Positions 9,823 to 20,515 of a DNA stretch of 51,742 nt are shown piece after piece. Below the pieces are notes generated by a model. It worked only from the letters and a program-made list of their open reading frames with translations, did not search any database and was not told where the DNA came from. The stretch covers positions 1 to 51,742 of the forward strand of contig JAJYIW010000002.1 in the NCBI GenBank assembly GCA_021789855.1. The letters are read 5' to 3'. Position 1 is the first letter of the stretch. Each line of letters opens with the position of its first letter. A program made the translations under genes and the position numbers. The DNA is from Chloroflexota bacterium. Its GTDB lineage: Bacteria > Chloroflexota > Anaerolineae > Anaerolineales > Anaerolineaceae.

Positions 9823-11034
9823 CTAAAGCCCGGCAGCCTGGCGCAGTATGGCAGCACGATCGGTGTGCTCCCAGGTCAGATCCAGGTCATCCCGGCCGAA
9901 ATGTCCATAAGCTGCCGTCTGACGGAAGATCGGGCGGCGCAGGTTGAGATCGTGGATGATCGCCCCAGGACGCAGATCAAAAATTTGATGGATCAGATCT
10001 GAAATTTTATCGTCCGGAATGACTCCCGTGCCAAACGTTTCCACATTGATGCTCAGAGGCCGGGCAACCCCAATCGCGTACGCAATCTGAATTTCGCAAC
10101 GTTTCGCCAGGCCCGCAGCGACGACGTTCTTGGCCACCCAACGAGCTGCGTATGCACCGGAACGGTCAACCTTGGTCGGATCTTTCCCGCTGAATGCGCC
10201 CCCGCCGTGCCGCCCCATCCCGCCATACGAGTCGACAATAATTTTACGCCCTGTCACCCCCGCGTCACCCATCGGGCCGCCGATAACGAAACGGCCGGTC
10301 GGGTTGACAAACACCTTGATGCGGTTATCCACCATTTCCTGCGGCAGGGTTGGGTAAATGACGTGCTCCATTAAAGCTTCAGTAATATCGGCATGGCTGA
10401 CCTCTGGCGCGTGTTGGGTGCTGACCAGCACGGTATCAATCCGGACCGGTTTGCCATACTGGTATTCCACGGTCACCTGGGTTTTGCCATCCGGACGCAG
10501 CCAGGGCAAAGTGCCAGCTTTGCGCACTTCGCTCAAGCGGCGGGCCAGCTTGTGGGCCATGAAGATCGGCATAGGCATCAGGGTCGGGGTTTCATCGCAA
10601 GCATAGCCAAACATCATGCCCTGGTCACCCGCGCCGATGGCTTCTATATCCGCATCCGTCATTTGACCTTCCTTGGCCTCCAGGGATTTATCCACACCCA
10701 TGGCGATATCCCCGGATTGGCGGGCAATGGCCACCTGAACCGCGCAGGAGTTGTAATCGAATCCCTTGGCCCCATCGTCATAGCCGATATCGCGCACCAC
10801 GTTGCGCACCACCTGGTCAAAATTGATCTGGGCTCGGGTGGTAATTTCGCCGAGGACCATCACAAAACCGGTCTTGGTCGCCGCTTCACAGGCCACCCGT
10901 GAATAGGGATCCTGCTCGAGGCAGGCATCCAGCACGCCATCGCTCACCTGGTCACACAACTTGTCCGGGTGGCCCTCGGTCACCGATTCGGAAGTGAACA
11001 GGTACTTCGGTGAATCCATAAAAGACGTATTCAT
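9823..11034 (-). CDS. metK: S-adenosylmethionine synthetase
   Basis: MetK joins methionine and ATP to make S-adenosylmethionine. From the ATG at 11034 the protein is 403 residues, close to the family norm. Signature motifs are present: [19 protein letters not shown] near the N-terminus, [12 protein letters not shown], and the glycine-rich [16 protein letters not shown]. The start is fixed by GGAGG five bases upstream. The open frame continues back to 11193, but those extra codons fall in the terminator and the SAM-I riboswitch and are not coding. Expression should fall when SAM is abundant. The gene ends nine bases from the convergent anti-sigma gene. Confidence 0.97.
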
Positions 11035-11052
11035 ATCATCCTCCACTATGTT

Positions 11053-11094
11053 AAAAAAATTTTGCCCCTGACCGGTAATCAAAGAGGGGCAAAA
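11053..11094 (-). terminator. Riboswitch-controlled terminator before metK
   Basis: On the minus strand, TTTTGCCCCT and AGGGGCAAAA form a 10-bp stem followed by seven T residues. It lies between the SAM-I aptamer and the metK ribosome-binding site, as expected for the expression platform. Confidence 0.9.
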
Positions 11095-11108
11095 CAACAT
11101 CGGCTGCC

Positions 11109-11227
<119 letters not shown>

Positions 11228-11296: not shown

Positions 11297-11962
11297 ATGC
11301 TTCAGGAAGATTACTTGATGCGCATGATCCGGCTGGCCACCACGGTGTTTGCCCATATCCTGGGATTGAAGCAGATCGGCAGTTACCAGGATGCAATGGC
11401 CATCATTGACCAGGCGCTGGAGGTGATCTTTGGGCTCAGCCCAGCCTTGATCAACAGCCTGGATGACGAGAGCCTGACCATACTGCTCACTTCAAAGAAT
11501 GGCCTGGAAGTGGATAAAGTGCTTATTTTAGCCGGCCTCCTTAAAGAGCGGGGAGATATCTACGCTGCCATCCAGCAACCTGACGATAGCCGCCTTTCTT
11601 ATGTCCGCGCCATTAATTTCTATCTCGACCTGTTTTTTACCCCCGCTCATATTCCCCCTGAAGTGCTGACCGAAAAAATTGAAGAGCTGTTATTGCTGAC
11701 GAAAGACCAACCGTTGACCGAGGATTTAAATTATCGGGTTTTCTTCTATTACGACCAGACCAGGCAATACAGCCGAGCCATCCGCCAGCTGGACAGCCTG
11801 TTATCCGATGCCAGGCCTGATTGGGAAGTGGTCTCGCAGGCCAGGGCTTTTTATCAACGCCTGTTGGAACTGCCCGACGAAGAGCTGGCTAAGGCTCAAA
11901 CCAGCCGGGATGCGCTATCAACCCGGCTCAAACAGCTCATTGAGCCGGATCGTCGCGTTTGA
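11297..11962 (+). CDS. DUF6483-like protein of unknown function
   Basis: A 221-residue, mostly helical cytosolic protein. The opening MLQEDYLMRMIRLATTVFAH, followed by SYQDAMAIIDQALEVIFGLS, resembles the DUF6483 family, recognised from memory and so only probable. There is no signal peptide or membrane segment. Helical pairs at about 25-60 and 150-215 could form TPR-like repeats. It is divergent from metK, separated by the riboswitch region, and its last 26 bases overlap the 3' end of the RNase Z gene on the other strand. No function is assigned. Confidence 0.7.
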   Translation: MLQEDYLMRMIRLATTVFAHILGLKQIGSYQDAMAIIDQALEVIFGLSPALINSLDDESLTILLTSKNGLEVDKVLILAGLLKERGDIYAAIQQPDDSRLSYVRAINFYLDLFFTPAHIPPEVLTEKIEELLLLTKDQPLTEDLNYRVFFYYDQTRQYSRAIRQLDSLLSDARPDWEVVSQARAFYQRLLELPDEELAKAQTSRDALSTRLKQLIEPDRRV

Positions 11963-12866
11963 TTTGGAAAGTATCGAAATCCCTGGCGACCGCCACGTTA
12001 GGGAAGACCGCCTGGGCTTCAGCCAGGACATCTTTTTCACGGTAACGGCGAGAAATATGGGTCAGGATCAATTGCCTCACGTTGGCTTGAACGGCCAGCT
12101 CAGCCGCCCGCCGCGCCGTCAGGTGGGAAAATTGCTGCGCCATTTCGGCTTCCTCTTCCAGGTAAGTCGCCTCAATCACCAGGGCATCGGCTCCCCTGAT
12201 TATCTCAACTAAATTTTCGGTGTACCCGACATCTCCAATATGAACCAGGCGTGTTCCCGCCCGGACCGGCCCCAAAACCTCTTCGGGCTGGATGGTGCGG
12301 CCATCGGGCAGCATAGCAGGCAGGCCGGCGACGAGATCGCGCCGCCAGGAGCCTTGTGGAATGCCCAGGGCTTCGGCCTTTTCCGCCAGAAAAGGCCGGC
12401 GCGAATGTTCTTCAAAGGTAAAGCCGATGCAATCTGGCCCGCGGTGAACCACCGGAAATGCCGAGACCGTGAAATCTTCGGCCTCGAAGAACGGCCCATT
12501 ACCGACTTCCTCAAAATAAATGGGCATAGGCGCCGTAGCGCCGCGCAAAACCACTCCATACAACAGATCGCGAATGCGGTCTATCGCCCCTCGGGCGGCA
12601 TAAATGCGCAATTCATCCATTGCTTCCCAGCGCATATAGGTAGAAAGCAAGCCCGCCAGGCCTAGAATATGGTCAAGATGGCCATGCGTGATTAATATCT
12701 GGTTTAATCGTTTGAACCCAATCCCAGATTGCAATATCTGGCGCTGTGTACCTTCGCCGCAATCAATCAGGAAACGATACTCATCATGTTTTAGAACCTG
12801 GGCAGAAAGACCGCGCCGGGCAGATGGAGCCGACGCGGAGGTGCCGAGAAAGATGATTTCGAACAA
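11937..12866 (-). CDS. rnz: Ribonuclease Z (tRNA 3' processing endonuclease)
   Basis: A 309-residue metallo-beta-lactamase-fold endonuclease that cuts the 3' trailer of tRNA precursors lacking an encoded CCA. The N-terminus MFEIIFLGTSASAPSARRG and the zinc motif THGHLDHILGL (about 60-70) are typical. Further metal ligands appear in FPVVHRGPDCIGF, HIGDVGYTENL and LTHISRRY. Length is normal. One tRNA-Ala in this window encodes CCA and the other does not, so an RNase Z route is relevant here. The 3' end overlaps the convergent DUF6483-like gene by 26 bases. Confidence 0.95.
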   Translation of the reverse strand: MFEIIFLGTSASAPSARRGLSAQVLKHDEYRFLIDCGEGTQRQILQSGIGFKRLNQILITHGHLDHILGLAGLLSTYMRWEAMDELRIYAARGAIDRIRDLLYGVVLRGATAPMPIYFEEVGNGPFFEAEDFTVSAFPVVHRGPDCIGFTFEEHSRRPFLAEKAEALGIPQGSWRRDLVAGLPAMLPDGRTIQPEEVLGPVRAGTRLVHIGDVGYTENLVEIIRGADALVIEATYLEEEAEMAQQFSHLTARRAAELAVQANVRQLILTHISRRYREKDVLAEAQAVFPNVAVARDFDTFQIKRDDPAQ

Positions 12867-13125: not shown

Positions 13126-13587
13126 TCAGATTCCTTTTTGCGCTTTGGCCAACGCTGCTTGAAACCCTGCCAGATAACCGCGTAGGCTGATGACCGGGCT
13201 GGCGATCTGATCGCACCACTGGCGCACCAGGCTGTAAGCATAAACTGCATAAGCCTGAGCCAGGAGCGTGTAAGACGGCACCAATCGCAGCAAGCGCGCC
13301 AGGAGATAAACCAGTGCGAACGCGAAAACCAGGATAAAAAAGCAGCCCACGATCACCGGCGCTGATAAGAAAATGAACGAAGTGTCTGCCCACCGGGACA
13401 ACGTGGTGGTATCAGGCGAAGCCGCGGTGATGATTACACCGGCTAGCAAGGCCAGGATGACCACCATGGTTACCCCCAGAGGGACATAAATTTGCCAGAC
13501 GGATTGGCGATAGTGCGCTGCCAGGCTGGTATGGGGTGGGCTTTTGAGCTCCACAACAGGCGTCTTATTAACCGGAGATTGGACCAT
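13126..13587 (-). CDS. Two-span integral membrane protein, unknown function
   Basis: A 153-residue protein with two clear hydrophobic segments (about 32-56 and 72-98), a hydrophilic N-terminus and an amphipathic C-terminal half ending in ALAKAQKGI. No catalytic motif is visible. It is probably the first gene of a short minus-strand unit leading to the 67-residue membrane protein and rnz. The ATG at 13587 lacks a clear Shine-Dalgarno. I cannot name a family. Confidence 0.7.
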   Translation of the reverse strand: MVQSPVNKTPVVELKSPPHTSLAAHYRQSVWQIYVPLGVTMVVILALLAGVIITAASPDTTTLSRWADTSFIFLSAPVIVGCFFILVFAFALVYLLARLLRLVPSYTLLAQAYAVYAYSLVRQWCDQIASPVISLRGYLAGFQAALAKAQKGI

Positions 13588-13696
13588 AGCTTTATTTTAG
13601 CATGAGTCGCCTGGATTCGGTGATCGTGCTGGCCTGAATCAAGGGCAATTTCATAAAAAGATAGACTGAAGTATACCCCTATCTTAAATAATCATG

Positions 13697-13702
13697 TATA
13701 AT
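13697..13702 (+). promoter_or_regulatory. Isolated minus-10-like TATAAT before a hairpin-rich intergenic region
   Basis: A perfect TATAAT sits in an AT-rich stretch at the beginning of the hairpin-rich region. No good -35 lies 16-18 bases upstream, so the promoter call is tentative. Confidence 0.35.
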
Positions 13703-13734
13703 GTTAACATTGGTTATTAATTGCTGACACCTGT

Positions 13735-14234
13735 CGCACCTTTAGTTTATTATATTTTCGGTGCGGCTGCGGTTTTTGGATGAAGGCCATGCCCGGTATG
13801 GCCCCACACACGGCCCAGGTGCAGTGTGTGAAATAAAATGGCATTGGTGAGTCATTGCTGGATGTGCCGGACATTAAACTGGCGCAGGTAATTGGTTGGG
13901 AGGTCGGTGGATTTTAGCCTGGCTTAAGCAGACTTTAGAGTCTGGGTTTAAGCGCAGGGCCACTTATGAAAGTTGTGGTGAAGGCCCAGGTTCAGGGTCT
14001 TTTTGAGGACCAAACAGGGGTGAAACCCTTCGCCACACTCGCCTTGGGAGAGATTAAGGGATTATGAGAAGACCAATCAACTGGCTTCGCCATGGATGTT
14101 TTGGGAACGACATGCTATTGATCACCTGAACCCGTCTTCCTGAACAACCGTTTCCGCTGATCGGAAACTCAATTCAGTGAAGATAAAATGAGTCATCCAC
14201 AGCCGTGGCCGCGCAAGGCAGGCCTACGGCTGTG
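13735..14234 (+). ncRNA. Candidate structured non-coding RNA (series of hairpins, no ORF)
   Basis: The 658-base gap between 13588 and 14245 holds no supportable gene but many inverted repeats. Visible stems are CGCACC/GGTGCG (13735/13760), GGCCAT/ATGGCC (13785/13798), CACACAC/GTGTGTG (13805/13824), and the strong nested GCTTAA-CAGACT-TTAG-AGTCTG-TTAAGC (13922-13953). Further stems are GGGCC/GGCCC (13957/13983), GGTC/GACC (13996/14008), AGGG/CCCT (14016/14026), GTTTCCG/CGGAAAC (14150/14162) and CACAGCCGT/ACGGCTGTG (14198/14226). I checked for RNase P RNA, tmRNA, SRP and 6S hallmarks and found none. It may be an unrecognised RNA, or the last stem may be a leader element of recX. Strand is assumed. 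Confidence 0.4.
14198..14234 (+). terminator. Strong hairpin just before recX
   Basis: CACAGCCGT and ACGGCTGTG form a perfect 9-bp stem with an inner GGCC/GGCC extension, followed by TTAATTTAA 11 bases before the recX ATG. It could end transcripts from the hairpin-rich region or regulate recX. The T-run is poor. Confidence 0.45.
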
Positions 14235-14245
14235 TTAATTTAACG

Positions 14246-14887
14246 ATGGACCATACGATCACGGCAATCAAAGCGCAAAAACGCAATCCTAACCGGCTGG
14301 CCATTTACCTGGATGGCGAGTTTGCCTTTGGGCTGGCCCGGATCGTGGCTGCCTGGTTAACCGTCGGACAGGTGCTGAGCGAGGCGGCGATCACAGAGCT
14401 GCAACGCAAGGATAAAGATGAGGCAGCTTACCAGTACGGCCTGACCGTACTCAACTACCGCCCGCGGTCTGTGGCCGAGTTGCGCCAAAAACTGGCCGAA
14501 AAAGGCTACACGGAAGCAGTAGCCGGGCTGGTCATCGAGCGAATGCAGCAGAACGGGTTGCTGAATGACCTGTTGTTTGCCCGAACCTGGGCCGAAAATC
14601 GATCGGCGTTTCACCCGCGCAGCCGGCGAGCCTTAACCATTGAACTGCGCCGAAAGGGTATTTCGGACAACGAGATTGAGCAGGCGCTGGGGGAGCCAGT
14701 GAACGAAGAAGAGTTGGCTTATCAGGCGGCCAGACGCCGGGCATCCAGGCTGGCCGACCTGGAACGAGCGGATTTTCGGAATAAGCTGGGCGCCTTTCTG
14801 GGTCGCCGGGGTTTCTCATACGACACGATCGCGCCAGTCATTGACCGCTTATGGAACGAGCTCCATGCTACGGAAAATAGTCGATGA
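14246..14887 (+). CDS. recX: Regulatory protein RecX
   Basis: A 213-residue RecX, which binds RecA filaments and inhibits recombinase and coprotease activity. It is made of three-helix RecX repeats: LTVLNYRPRSVAELRQKLAEKGY (about 68-90), NGLLNDLLFARTWAENRSAF (about 103-122), IELRRKGISDNEIEQALG, and a last repeat near the C-terminus (FLGRRGFSYDTIAPVIDRLW). An extra N-terminal domain (about 1-55) is common in Gram-positive-type RecX. recA is not in the window. rny follows after about 90 bases on the same strand. Confidence 0.92.
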   Translation: MDHTITAIKAQKRNPNRLAIYLDGEFAFGLARIVAAWLTVGQVLSEAAITELQRKDKDEAAYQYGLTVLNYRPRSVAELRQKLAEKGYTEAVAGLVIERMQQNGLLNDLLFARTWAENRSAFHPRSRRALTIELRRKGISDNEIEQALGEPVNEEELAYQAARRRASRLADLERADFRNKLGAFLGRRGFSYDTIAPVIDRLWNELHATENSR

Positions 14888-14974: not shown

Positions 14975-16504
14975 ATGGAAAATTTTGTATGGATCTTTTT
15001 GATCTTGCTGGGATTAGGAGGAGGTGCACTGGCCGGGTACCAGTATAAACGTTACCTGGACGAGAAATTACGCAAGCAGCAGGAGCTGAAAGCCAACAGC
15101 ATCGTTCAGGCAGCGCAAGAAACGGCACACCGGATCGAGCTGCAAGCCAAAGATGATGCGCTGAAAGCTCAGCAGGCAGTGGAAGCTGAGAGCGTCCGGA
15201 GACACCTAGAGCTGAGCCGGGAGGAAGACCGCCTGCAAAAGCGGCGAGCAGAACTCGATCATCGCCTCGAGCGGCTGGAACAACGCGAACAAATGATTAA
15301 CAAACGCCAGGGTGCGCTGGATAAACGGGTTAACGACGTTGAAAAGCTTTATACGCAACAGGTGGCCGAACTGCAGCGGGTTGCACAGATGAGTGTAGAA
15401 GATGCCCGAAACGTGCTCCTGGAAGATGCGGAAAAGGAAGCCCGCTCCGACATGGCGCGGATTATCCGCCAGATTGAAGCCGAAGCGCGCGAGGAGGGCG
15501 AAAGTCGCGCCCGCGTCCTCATTGCCGAGGCCATCCAGCGGGTTGCCTCGGATCACGTCGCTGAGGTGACCACCTCGGTGGTGCCTTTGCCCAATGAAGA
15601 GATGAAAGGCCGCATCGTAGGACGCAATGGGCGTAACATCCGCGCGTTTGAACAGGCCGCCGGGGTGGATGTGATTGTCGACGATACCCCCGAGGCCGTC
15701 ACGGTATCCTGCTTTGACCCGGTGCGCCGCGAGGTGGCCCGGCGATCCCTGGCGCGGTTGATCCTGGATGGGCGCATCCACCCGGCGCACATTGAAAAAA
15801 TCTTGAACGATGAGCAACGCCAGGTAGAGCGTGACATTGTCGATGCAGGCGAACAGGCCGCTTTTGACGCGGGCGTTGCCGGTTTGCACCCTGAAGTGCT
15901 CAAAACGTTGGGCCGGCTTAAATATCGCACATCTTACGGTCAAAACCAACTGGCTCATTCTGTGGAGGTGGCCAAGCTGGCAGCCGTGTTGGCGGCTGAG
16001 TTAGGCGCGGATGTCGAAGTTTCCAAAGCCGGCGCCTTATTGCATGACCTGGGCAAAGCCATGGATCACAACACGGAAGGTACCCATGCCATGATCGGGG
16101 CTGAATTTGCCAAGCGTTACGGGGTACCGGCGAAAGTGATCAACGTTATTGCTTCCCACCACCACGAGGTGGAACAGGAAAGCGTGGAGGCGGTGATAGC
16201 TGAATGCGCTGATGCGATCTCCGGGGCCCGGCCAGGGGCCAGGCGCGAAGACCTGGATCAATATATCAAACGCCTGCGCGCGCTGGAAGATATCGCTAAT
16301 TCCTACAAGGGCGTTAACCAGAGCTACGCTATCCAGGCCGGACGCGAAGTACGCATCATCGTGCGTCCCGATGAAATCGACGACCTGGCATCGGTCCGCC
16401 TGGCCCGCGATATCTCCAAGAAAATAGAGGAGACCATGCAGTACCCCGGCCAGATCAAGGTGACGGTTATCCGCGAGACCCGCGCCGTCGATTACGCCAA
16501 ATAG
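14975..16504 (+). CDS. rny: Ribonuclease Y
   Basis: A 509-residue membrane-anchored endoribonuclease that starts mRNA decay. The N-terminal membrane helix (about 4-22) is followed by a long charged coiled coil (about 30-195). Next come the KH RNA-binding domain (GRIVGRNGRNIRAFEQAAGV, about 213-232) and an HD phosphohydrolase domain with HSVEVAKLAAVLA and LLHDLGKAMDH (about 327-362). It ends in the usual KVTVIRETRAVDYAK. AGAGGATGAGGA precedes the ATG. Length and domain order match the Bacillus enzyme. It may share a transcript with recX. Confidence 0.97.
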   Translation: MENFVWIFLILLGLGGGALAGYQYKRYLDEKLRKQQELKANSIVQAAQETAHRIELQAKDDALKAQQAVEAESVRRHLELSREEDRLQKRRAELDHRLERLEQREQMINKRQGALDKRVNDVEKLYTQQVAELQRVAQMSVEDARNVLLEDAEKEARSDMARIIRQIEAEAREEGESRARVLIAEAIQRVASDHVAEVTTSVVPLPNEEMKGRIVGRNGRNIRAFEQAAGVDVIVDDTPEAVTVSCFDPVRREVARRSLARLILDGRIHPAHIEKILNDEQRQVERDIVDAGEQAAFDAGVAGLHPEVLKTLGRLKYRTSYGQNQLAHSVEVAKLAAVLAAELGADVEVSKAGALLHDLGKAMDHNTEGTHAMIGAEFAKRYGVPAKVINVIASHHHEVEQESVEAVIAECADAISGARPGARREDLDQYIKRLRALEDIANSYKGVNQSYAIQAGREVRIIVRPDEIDDLASVRLARDISKKIEETMQYPGQIKVTVIRETRAVDYAK

Positions 16505-20120: not shown

Positions 20121-20196
20121 GGGCCTGTAGCGCAGTTGGGAGCGCGCCTCAATCGCACTGAGGAGGTCGAGAGTTCGAATCTCTCCAGGTCCACCA
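20121..20196 (+). tRNA. tRNA-Ala (anticodon CGC)
   Basis: The cloverleaf folds cleanly: acceptor GGGCCTG/CAGGTCC, D stem GCGC/GCGC, anticodon stem CCTCA/TGAGG with loop ATCGCAC, and T arm GAGAG-TTCGAAT-CTCTC. The anticodon is CGC, reading GCG. The G3-U70 pair, the alanine identity element, is present. The 3' CCA is encoded. Confidence 0.97.
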
Positions 20197-20428: not shown

Positions 20429-20501
20429 GGGCCCATAGCGCAGTTGGGAGCGCGTCTCAATGGCATTGAGAAGGTCGAGAGTTCGAATCTCTCTGGGTCC
20501 A
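20429..20501 (+). tRNA. tRNA-Ala (anticodon GGC)
   Basis: The cloverleaf is acceptor GGGCCCA/TGGGTCC with G3-U70, D stem GCGC/GCGC, anticodon stem TCTCA/TGAGA with loop ATGGCAT, and T arm GAGAG-TTCGAAT-CTCTC. The anticodon GGC reads GCC and GCU. The discriminator A is followed by CAC, so the 3' CCA is not encoded and must be added enzymatically, unlike in the first tRNA-Ala. Confidence 0.97.
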
Positions 20502-20515
20502 CACAACCCGTCAAC

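Follow-up and report, generated by a model that had tools for sequence, protein, structure and literature searches.

Gene content and predicted fold of the locus

The window analyzed here is a 51,742-nucleotide stretch of contig JAJYIW010000002.1 from a Chloroflexota bacterium of the Anaerolineaceae. Within it, a gene-free stretch (13690–14245) lies between a divergent membrane-protein gene (13126–13587, minus strand), for which only a weak Yip1-like match was obtained, and recX. The lack of a supportable ORF, noted in the initial annotation, was confirmed: the sole ORF of at least 50 amino acids is a 56-amino-acid, minus-strand frame without a Pfam match. The parts of the window copy and the two genes behind it are as follows.

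13695–13702, + strand: extended −10 promoter TG-TATAAT (a motif, not a mapped start); the surrounding block, CTTAAATAATCATGTATAATG, is common to relatives
13709–14245, + strand: putative structured RNA (leader or ncRNA), running from roughly where transcription would begin up to recX; folding z of this segment alone, −4.37
13733–13767, + strand: 5′ hairpin GTCGCACC/GGTGCGGC, pair probability 0.96
13777–13783/14193–14199, + strand: candidate closing helix P2, TGGATGA/TCATCCA, probability ~0.5
13785–13803, + strand: hairpin GGCCATGC/GTATGGCC, probability ~1.0, 88 nt after TATAAT (the P3 position)
13805–13830, + strand: hairpin CACACAC/GTGTGTG, probability 0.92
13918–13958, + strand: nested stem of the initial annotation, probability 0.83–0.95
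13974–14037, + strand: 11-bp stem TGTGGTGAAGG/CCTTCGCCACA, probability 0.96, with an inner hairpin at 13996–14011 (probability 0.93)
14134–14184, + strand: stem GTCTTC-CTGAA/TTCAG-GAAGAT, probability 0.97–0.99, with an inner hairpin at 14150–14168
14198–14242, + strand: terminator-like hairpin CACAGCCGT..ACGGCTGTG, then TTAATTTA; directly before recX, weak T-run
14246–14887, + strand: recX (Pfam RecX_HTH1-3)
14975–16504, + strand: rny (RNase Y; Pfam RNase_Y_N, KH and HD), the second gene behind the RNA

The plus strand of the whole stretch folds with a minimum free energy of −204.3 kcal/mol, compared with −174.7 ± 6.7 for dinucleotide shuffles (z = −4.42; 0/100 as good). The minus strand likewise folds better than chance (z = −5.0); the plus strand is preferred for the RNA because of the orientation of the promoter and terminator in relatives. 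Perfect stems of 7 bp (14150–14156/14162–14168) and 9 bp (14198–14206/14226–14234) are present exactly as first described, while the nested stem at 13922–13953, described as 12 bp, exists but comprises 13 bp with a 2-nt bulge (13922–13934/13939–13953, pair probability 0.91–0.95). The figure of at least nine inverted repeats is threshold-dependent—a strict repeat finder returns only 5, and the ensemble fold contains more than 10 helices with probability above 0.8. The P2 candidate competes with a pairing between GGTGA (13846–13850) and TCATC (14193–14197).

Conservation of position and promoter

A DNA search of 60 relatives matched the stretch only in the window's own genome, and recX was therefore taken as the anchor for homologues. 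A scan of genome contigs with RecX gave one locus, and recX was found in 134/147 genomes of the family; 131 loci supplied upstream DNA for comparison. One relative, L032, encodes a RecX with 51% identity. Sequence conservation between genera is very low. In relatives rny follows recX, and the gene upstream of the RNA varies by genus, being the membrane-protein gene in some and ABC-transporter-ATPase-like or malic-enzyme-like fragments (named by eye) elsewhere. Because the upstream gene changes between genera, the conserved unit is RNA–recX–rny, and the RNA is linked to recX–rny rather than to the membrane-protein gene. In other families recA adjoins recX, with approximately 260–460 nt or more between them, but in the window's genome recA is on another contig; the RNA thus goes with recX, not with recA.

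The TATAAT lies at 13697–13702, where it had been located initially, and is preceded by the TG of an extended −10 element. By blastn, a block of 23–24 nt around it matches the same place in three relatives (L013, L024 and L025). In a count that is independent of alignment, TG/GG/AG-TATAAT occurs 240–600 nt before recX in 113/128 family genomes, compared with 1–5 in shuffles made from the same DNA. At the order level the motif is present in 63/71 loci (2–3 in shuffles), a figure that includes five matches inside recA from one family, f9; these f9 matches, at approximately −500, were discounted as they lie within the recA coding sequence. The distance from promoter to recX within the family has a median of 382 nt (range 252–549), the window copy being the longest. 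Over this promoter-to-recX stretch, terminal hairpin included, the mean folding z is −3.19 in 121 family genomes, with 77% below −2.

Clustering of six-frame segments revealed no reading frame common to the homologous stretches beyond genus-level conserved DNA and neighboring genes. In genus g9, an apparent coding motif, FYTPxGE, was dismissed because it corresponds to an ACTCC/GGAGT hairpin and forms no shared-frame cluster.

Compensatory changes and RNA architecture

Covariation was evaluated separately in two families. In a genus of the window's family, g11 (13 sequences), 15/52 pairs of the RNAalifold structure are changed on both sides, against a shuffled mean of 4.6 (0/500 as high), and the structure collapses when slid by one column. 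In f12, another family of the order, the RNA is compact (approximately 300 nt, with a core of 195–215 nt), and 12/35 pairs in an alignment of 19 sequences are changed on both sides (shuffled mean 7.2; 3/500 as high). For g9, structures were obtained by RNAalifold on close subgroups, as the whole g9 set misaligned.

The architecture that emerges consists of the promoter, one or more 5′ hairpins, a closing helix P2, a hairpin P3, further hairpins, P2′ and the terminator. In g11, a 5′ hairpin with compensatory changes (helix 1) stands at a place similar to that of the window hairpin at 13733–13767. P3 is usually CTCCC/GGGAG in relatives and mostly lies 70–125 nt after TATAAT; pyrimidine/purine hairpins are found in 100/184 elements, whereas shuffles give 28–37 and the reverse orientation gives 26. 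The window hairpin at the P3 position is not pyrimidine/purine in sequence and is without the usual CTCCC/GGGAG. Throughout the family, the terminator is generally preceded at once by a closing helix (mean score 5.8 versus 3.3 for shuffles).

A covariance model, R1, was built on f12 and run over 100 whole f12 genomes. It matches 36 of them, once each, and comparison with the recX coordinates places all 36 matches immediately before recX and in its orientation. Several of the matched genomes (G255, G257, G259, G277, G278, G290, G311 and G323) belong to genera outside the model set; the remaining 64/100 genomes gave no R1 match, which at such divergence does not imply absence. Across 42 R1 matches, 27/35 pairs are changed on both sides, in an alignment that was fitted to the model and is thus biased towards it. 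R1 gives no match in the window at E ≤ 10, nor any at meaningful scores in other members of the window's family, which is too diverged from f12 for the model. As R1 does not detect the window copy, its membership of the same RNA is inferred from where it lies and from its promoter, terminator and fold; it combines the promoter with a hairpin 70–125 nt later, a stem of the ACAGCC..GGCTGT type and recX behind. At the level of sequence, the comparison establishes a promoter motif, a conserved position, structure, compensatory changes and linkage to recX.

Terminator-like right boundary

In many relatives an ACAGCC..GGCTGT stem, with clearer T-runs than that of the window, stands before recX. By a simple criterion, a terminator-like stem precedes recX in 103/131 family loci and 68/71 order loci; some genera are without a clear hairpin there. 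The criterion is weak alone (94/121 real tails pass, and 118/363 shuffled tails), and because it passes a third of shuffled tails, the terminator argument rests on shared sequence and position. The median distance from the end of the stem to the start of recX is 18 nt, so that a promoter serving recX alone would have little space. Terminator-like hairpins also precede recX in the class-level loci.

Predicted function

Together, the far-upstream promoter, structured RNA, terminator-like stem at recX, scant space for another promoter and strict linkage suggest that the RNA is an attenuated leader. Our confidence is evenly balanced that the stretch represents a previously undescribed RNA family, spread across the order, and works as a terminator-attenuated leader of the recX–rny operon. 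Plus-strand transcription from the promoter at 13697 would yield the structured RNA, which would fold into several hairpins within a long closing helix and end at an intrinsic terminator abutting recX. Most polymerases would stop at this terminator, releasing a short RNA, and a minority would read through, allowing RecX and RNase Y to be made. The leader would set the read-through fraction, either because RNase Y may cleave or bind it or because it may refold. Transcription, termination, read-through and a sensed signal are what we infer here, and the model predicts short leader RNAs that end just before recX. The stable linkage to recX expected of an attenuated leader is borne out in f12, where every one of the R1 matches adjoins recX and none lies elsewhere.

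The main rival, which we consider rather unlikely but take seriously, is an independent, trans-acting ncRNA of approximately 250–540 nt with its own promoter and terminator. In that case, recX–rny would be transcribed through read-through or in some other way, and its place next to the RNA would be a historical accident. The promoter looks strong, the RNA appears closed (by both closing helix and terminator), there is one copy per genome, and the Y-rich CUCCC..GGGAG hairpin presumably resembles the C-rich seeds of some sRNAs. However, such an RNA need not have stayed beside recX in 36/36 genomes, never elsewhere, even though its upstream neighbors vary, and its fast divergence, with no long invariant stretch, is not what would be expected from a conserved partner. 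An unlikely wider reading is that of a new class of large structured RNA, spread across the order with a single copy in each genome, that may act biochemically in its own right (for example, by binding RNase Y or the ribosome) besides attenuating recX–rny. This would tie recombination control to RNA decay.

Very low sequence conservation between genera and the variable length (252–549 nt) would also suit a passive, long 5′ UTR of recX–rny with a conserved promoter and structure due to chance or base composition. The compensatory changes above shuffles in two separate families, a fold that beats dinucleotide shuffles in most genomes, and a P3 hairpin that holds its position make this improbable. 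An origin as a degenerate gene or mobile element, suggested by the missing ORF and the lack of DNA matches in 60 relatives, is scarcely credible given a promoter, terminator-type stem and position kept in more than 100 genomes and no shared reading frame.

Comparison with known RNA classes

The size of the RNA falls in the range of known classes, and a diverged 6S RNA, SRP RNA, tmRNA, RNase P RNA or known riboswitch could have been missed by Rfam. We consider this very improbable, since the four housekeeping RNAs, whose hallmarks had been sought in the stretch without success, are all encoded on other contigs of the same genome.

G000:C167:15822-15998: 6S RNA (RF00013); no match in the window
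G000:C278:6473-6572: SRP RNA (RF00169)
G000:C27:7021-7418: tmRNA (RF00023); ARAGORN finds none in the window
G000:C239:10657-11153: RNase P RNA (RF00010)

The Rfam evidence argues in the same direction. No family matched 13690–14245 at E ≤ 5, and across the entire window Rfam matches are limited to a SAM riboswitch and two tRNAs. In approximately 50 homologous loci, no credible riboswitch, T-box or leader was found with Rfam 15 (E ≤ 1 or gathering cut-off), the sole weak match among relatives being GABA3 (E = 0.16, under its cut-off). The original proposal of a possible new structured RNA is thereby supported: the region has no Rfam match, and conservation and covariation are present at the same place before recX in relatives. 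From the sequence comparison, the best explanation is that the stretch belongs to an undescribed, order-wide RNA family. In a limited, open-access literature, we found no paper on an RNA before recX in these bacteria.

Comparison with known leaders

We rate the RNA family as new and the control element as one of a known kind. The 5′ UTR of Escherichia coli rne, 361 nt long, is a feedback element. It resembles the RNA described here in being long and structured and in standing ahead of the gene for a decay endonuclease; the enzyme is different, however, and the scans of the stretch and its relatives gave no credible Rfam match. To our knowledge, no intrinsic terminator lies between the E. coli rne leader and its gene. 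In Synechocystis sp. PCC 6803, 95.9% of polymerases fail to pass from the rne 5′ UTR into the RNase E gene, and leader RNAs of 200–500 nt accumulate (PMC10989929). There too a long leader stands before the gene for a main decay endonuclease, but the enzyme is RNase E, not RNase Y, and in the window recX intervenes and control by the nuclease is a prediction. For E. coli recX, approximately 10% read-through of a terminator is reported (cited in PMC3542578); that terminator lies directly before recX and limits its expression, as the terminator-like stem would in the window, but the transcript starts from recA, whereas the window RNA would start at a promoter of its own, with recA located elsewhere. 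As analogues, the Synechocystis rne and E. coli recX precedents indicate that each half of the mechanism occurs in nature. Bacillus subtilis RNase Y controls its own mRNA partly via the 5′ UTR (PMC10303841). That UTR differs in being 164 nt long, with the strongest cleavages near its 5′ end, and the model proposed for it includes neither recX nor an attenuator (PMC10303841).

Rfam has no entry for this RNA family, which was found in the majority of genomes sampled from a large and little-studied order of bacteria. Should the RNA control recX–rny, one leader would couple a regulator of RecA to a main mRNA-decay nuclease, an arrangement comparable to that of the RNase E leaders in E. coli and cyanobacteria but with an unrelated enzyme.

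Loci outside the family and other features of the window

In L147, L148, L159 and L164, and at class level in loci such as L217 and L222, recA precedes recX with a spacer of 260–460 nt or more and a strong hairpin just before recX. The recA–recX spacer of other families may be ancestral to the RNA. The recX-upstream spacers of three class-level loci from different families (L212, L214 and L219) share a recurring motif resembling ACTGGTT-G-CCAA-GTGG, possibly part of the same RNA. One genome, G225, carries two recA genes (C1:1321341-1322363 and C1:1925955-1926965; 79% identical over the match), one of which adjoins recX.

Elsewhere in the window, a ribonuclease Z-like gene (11937–12866, minus strand) is encoded upstream on the strand opposite the RNA, from which two small genes separate it. 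The SAM riboswitch (11109–11225, minus strand) is directly upstream of a metK-like gene, whose listed ORF spans 9823–11193 and whose true start is probably further in. The two tRNA genes (20121–20196 and 20429–20502, plus strand) both encode tRNA-Ala, with anticodons CGC and GGC, and are approximately 230 nt apart.
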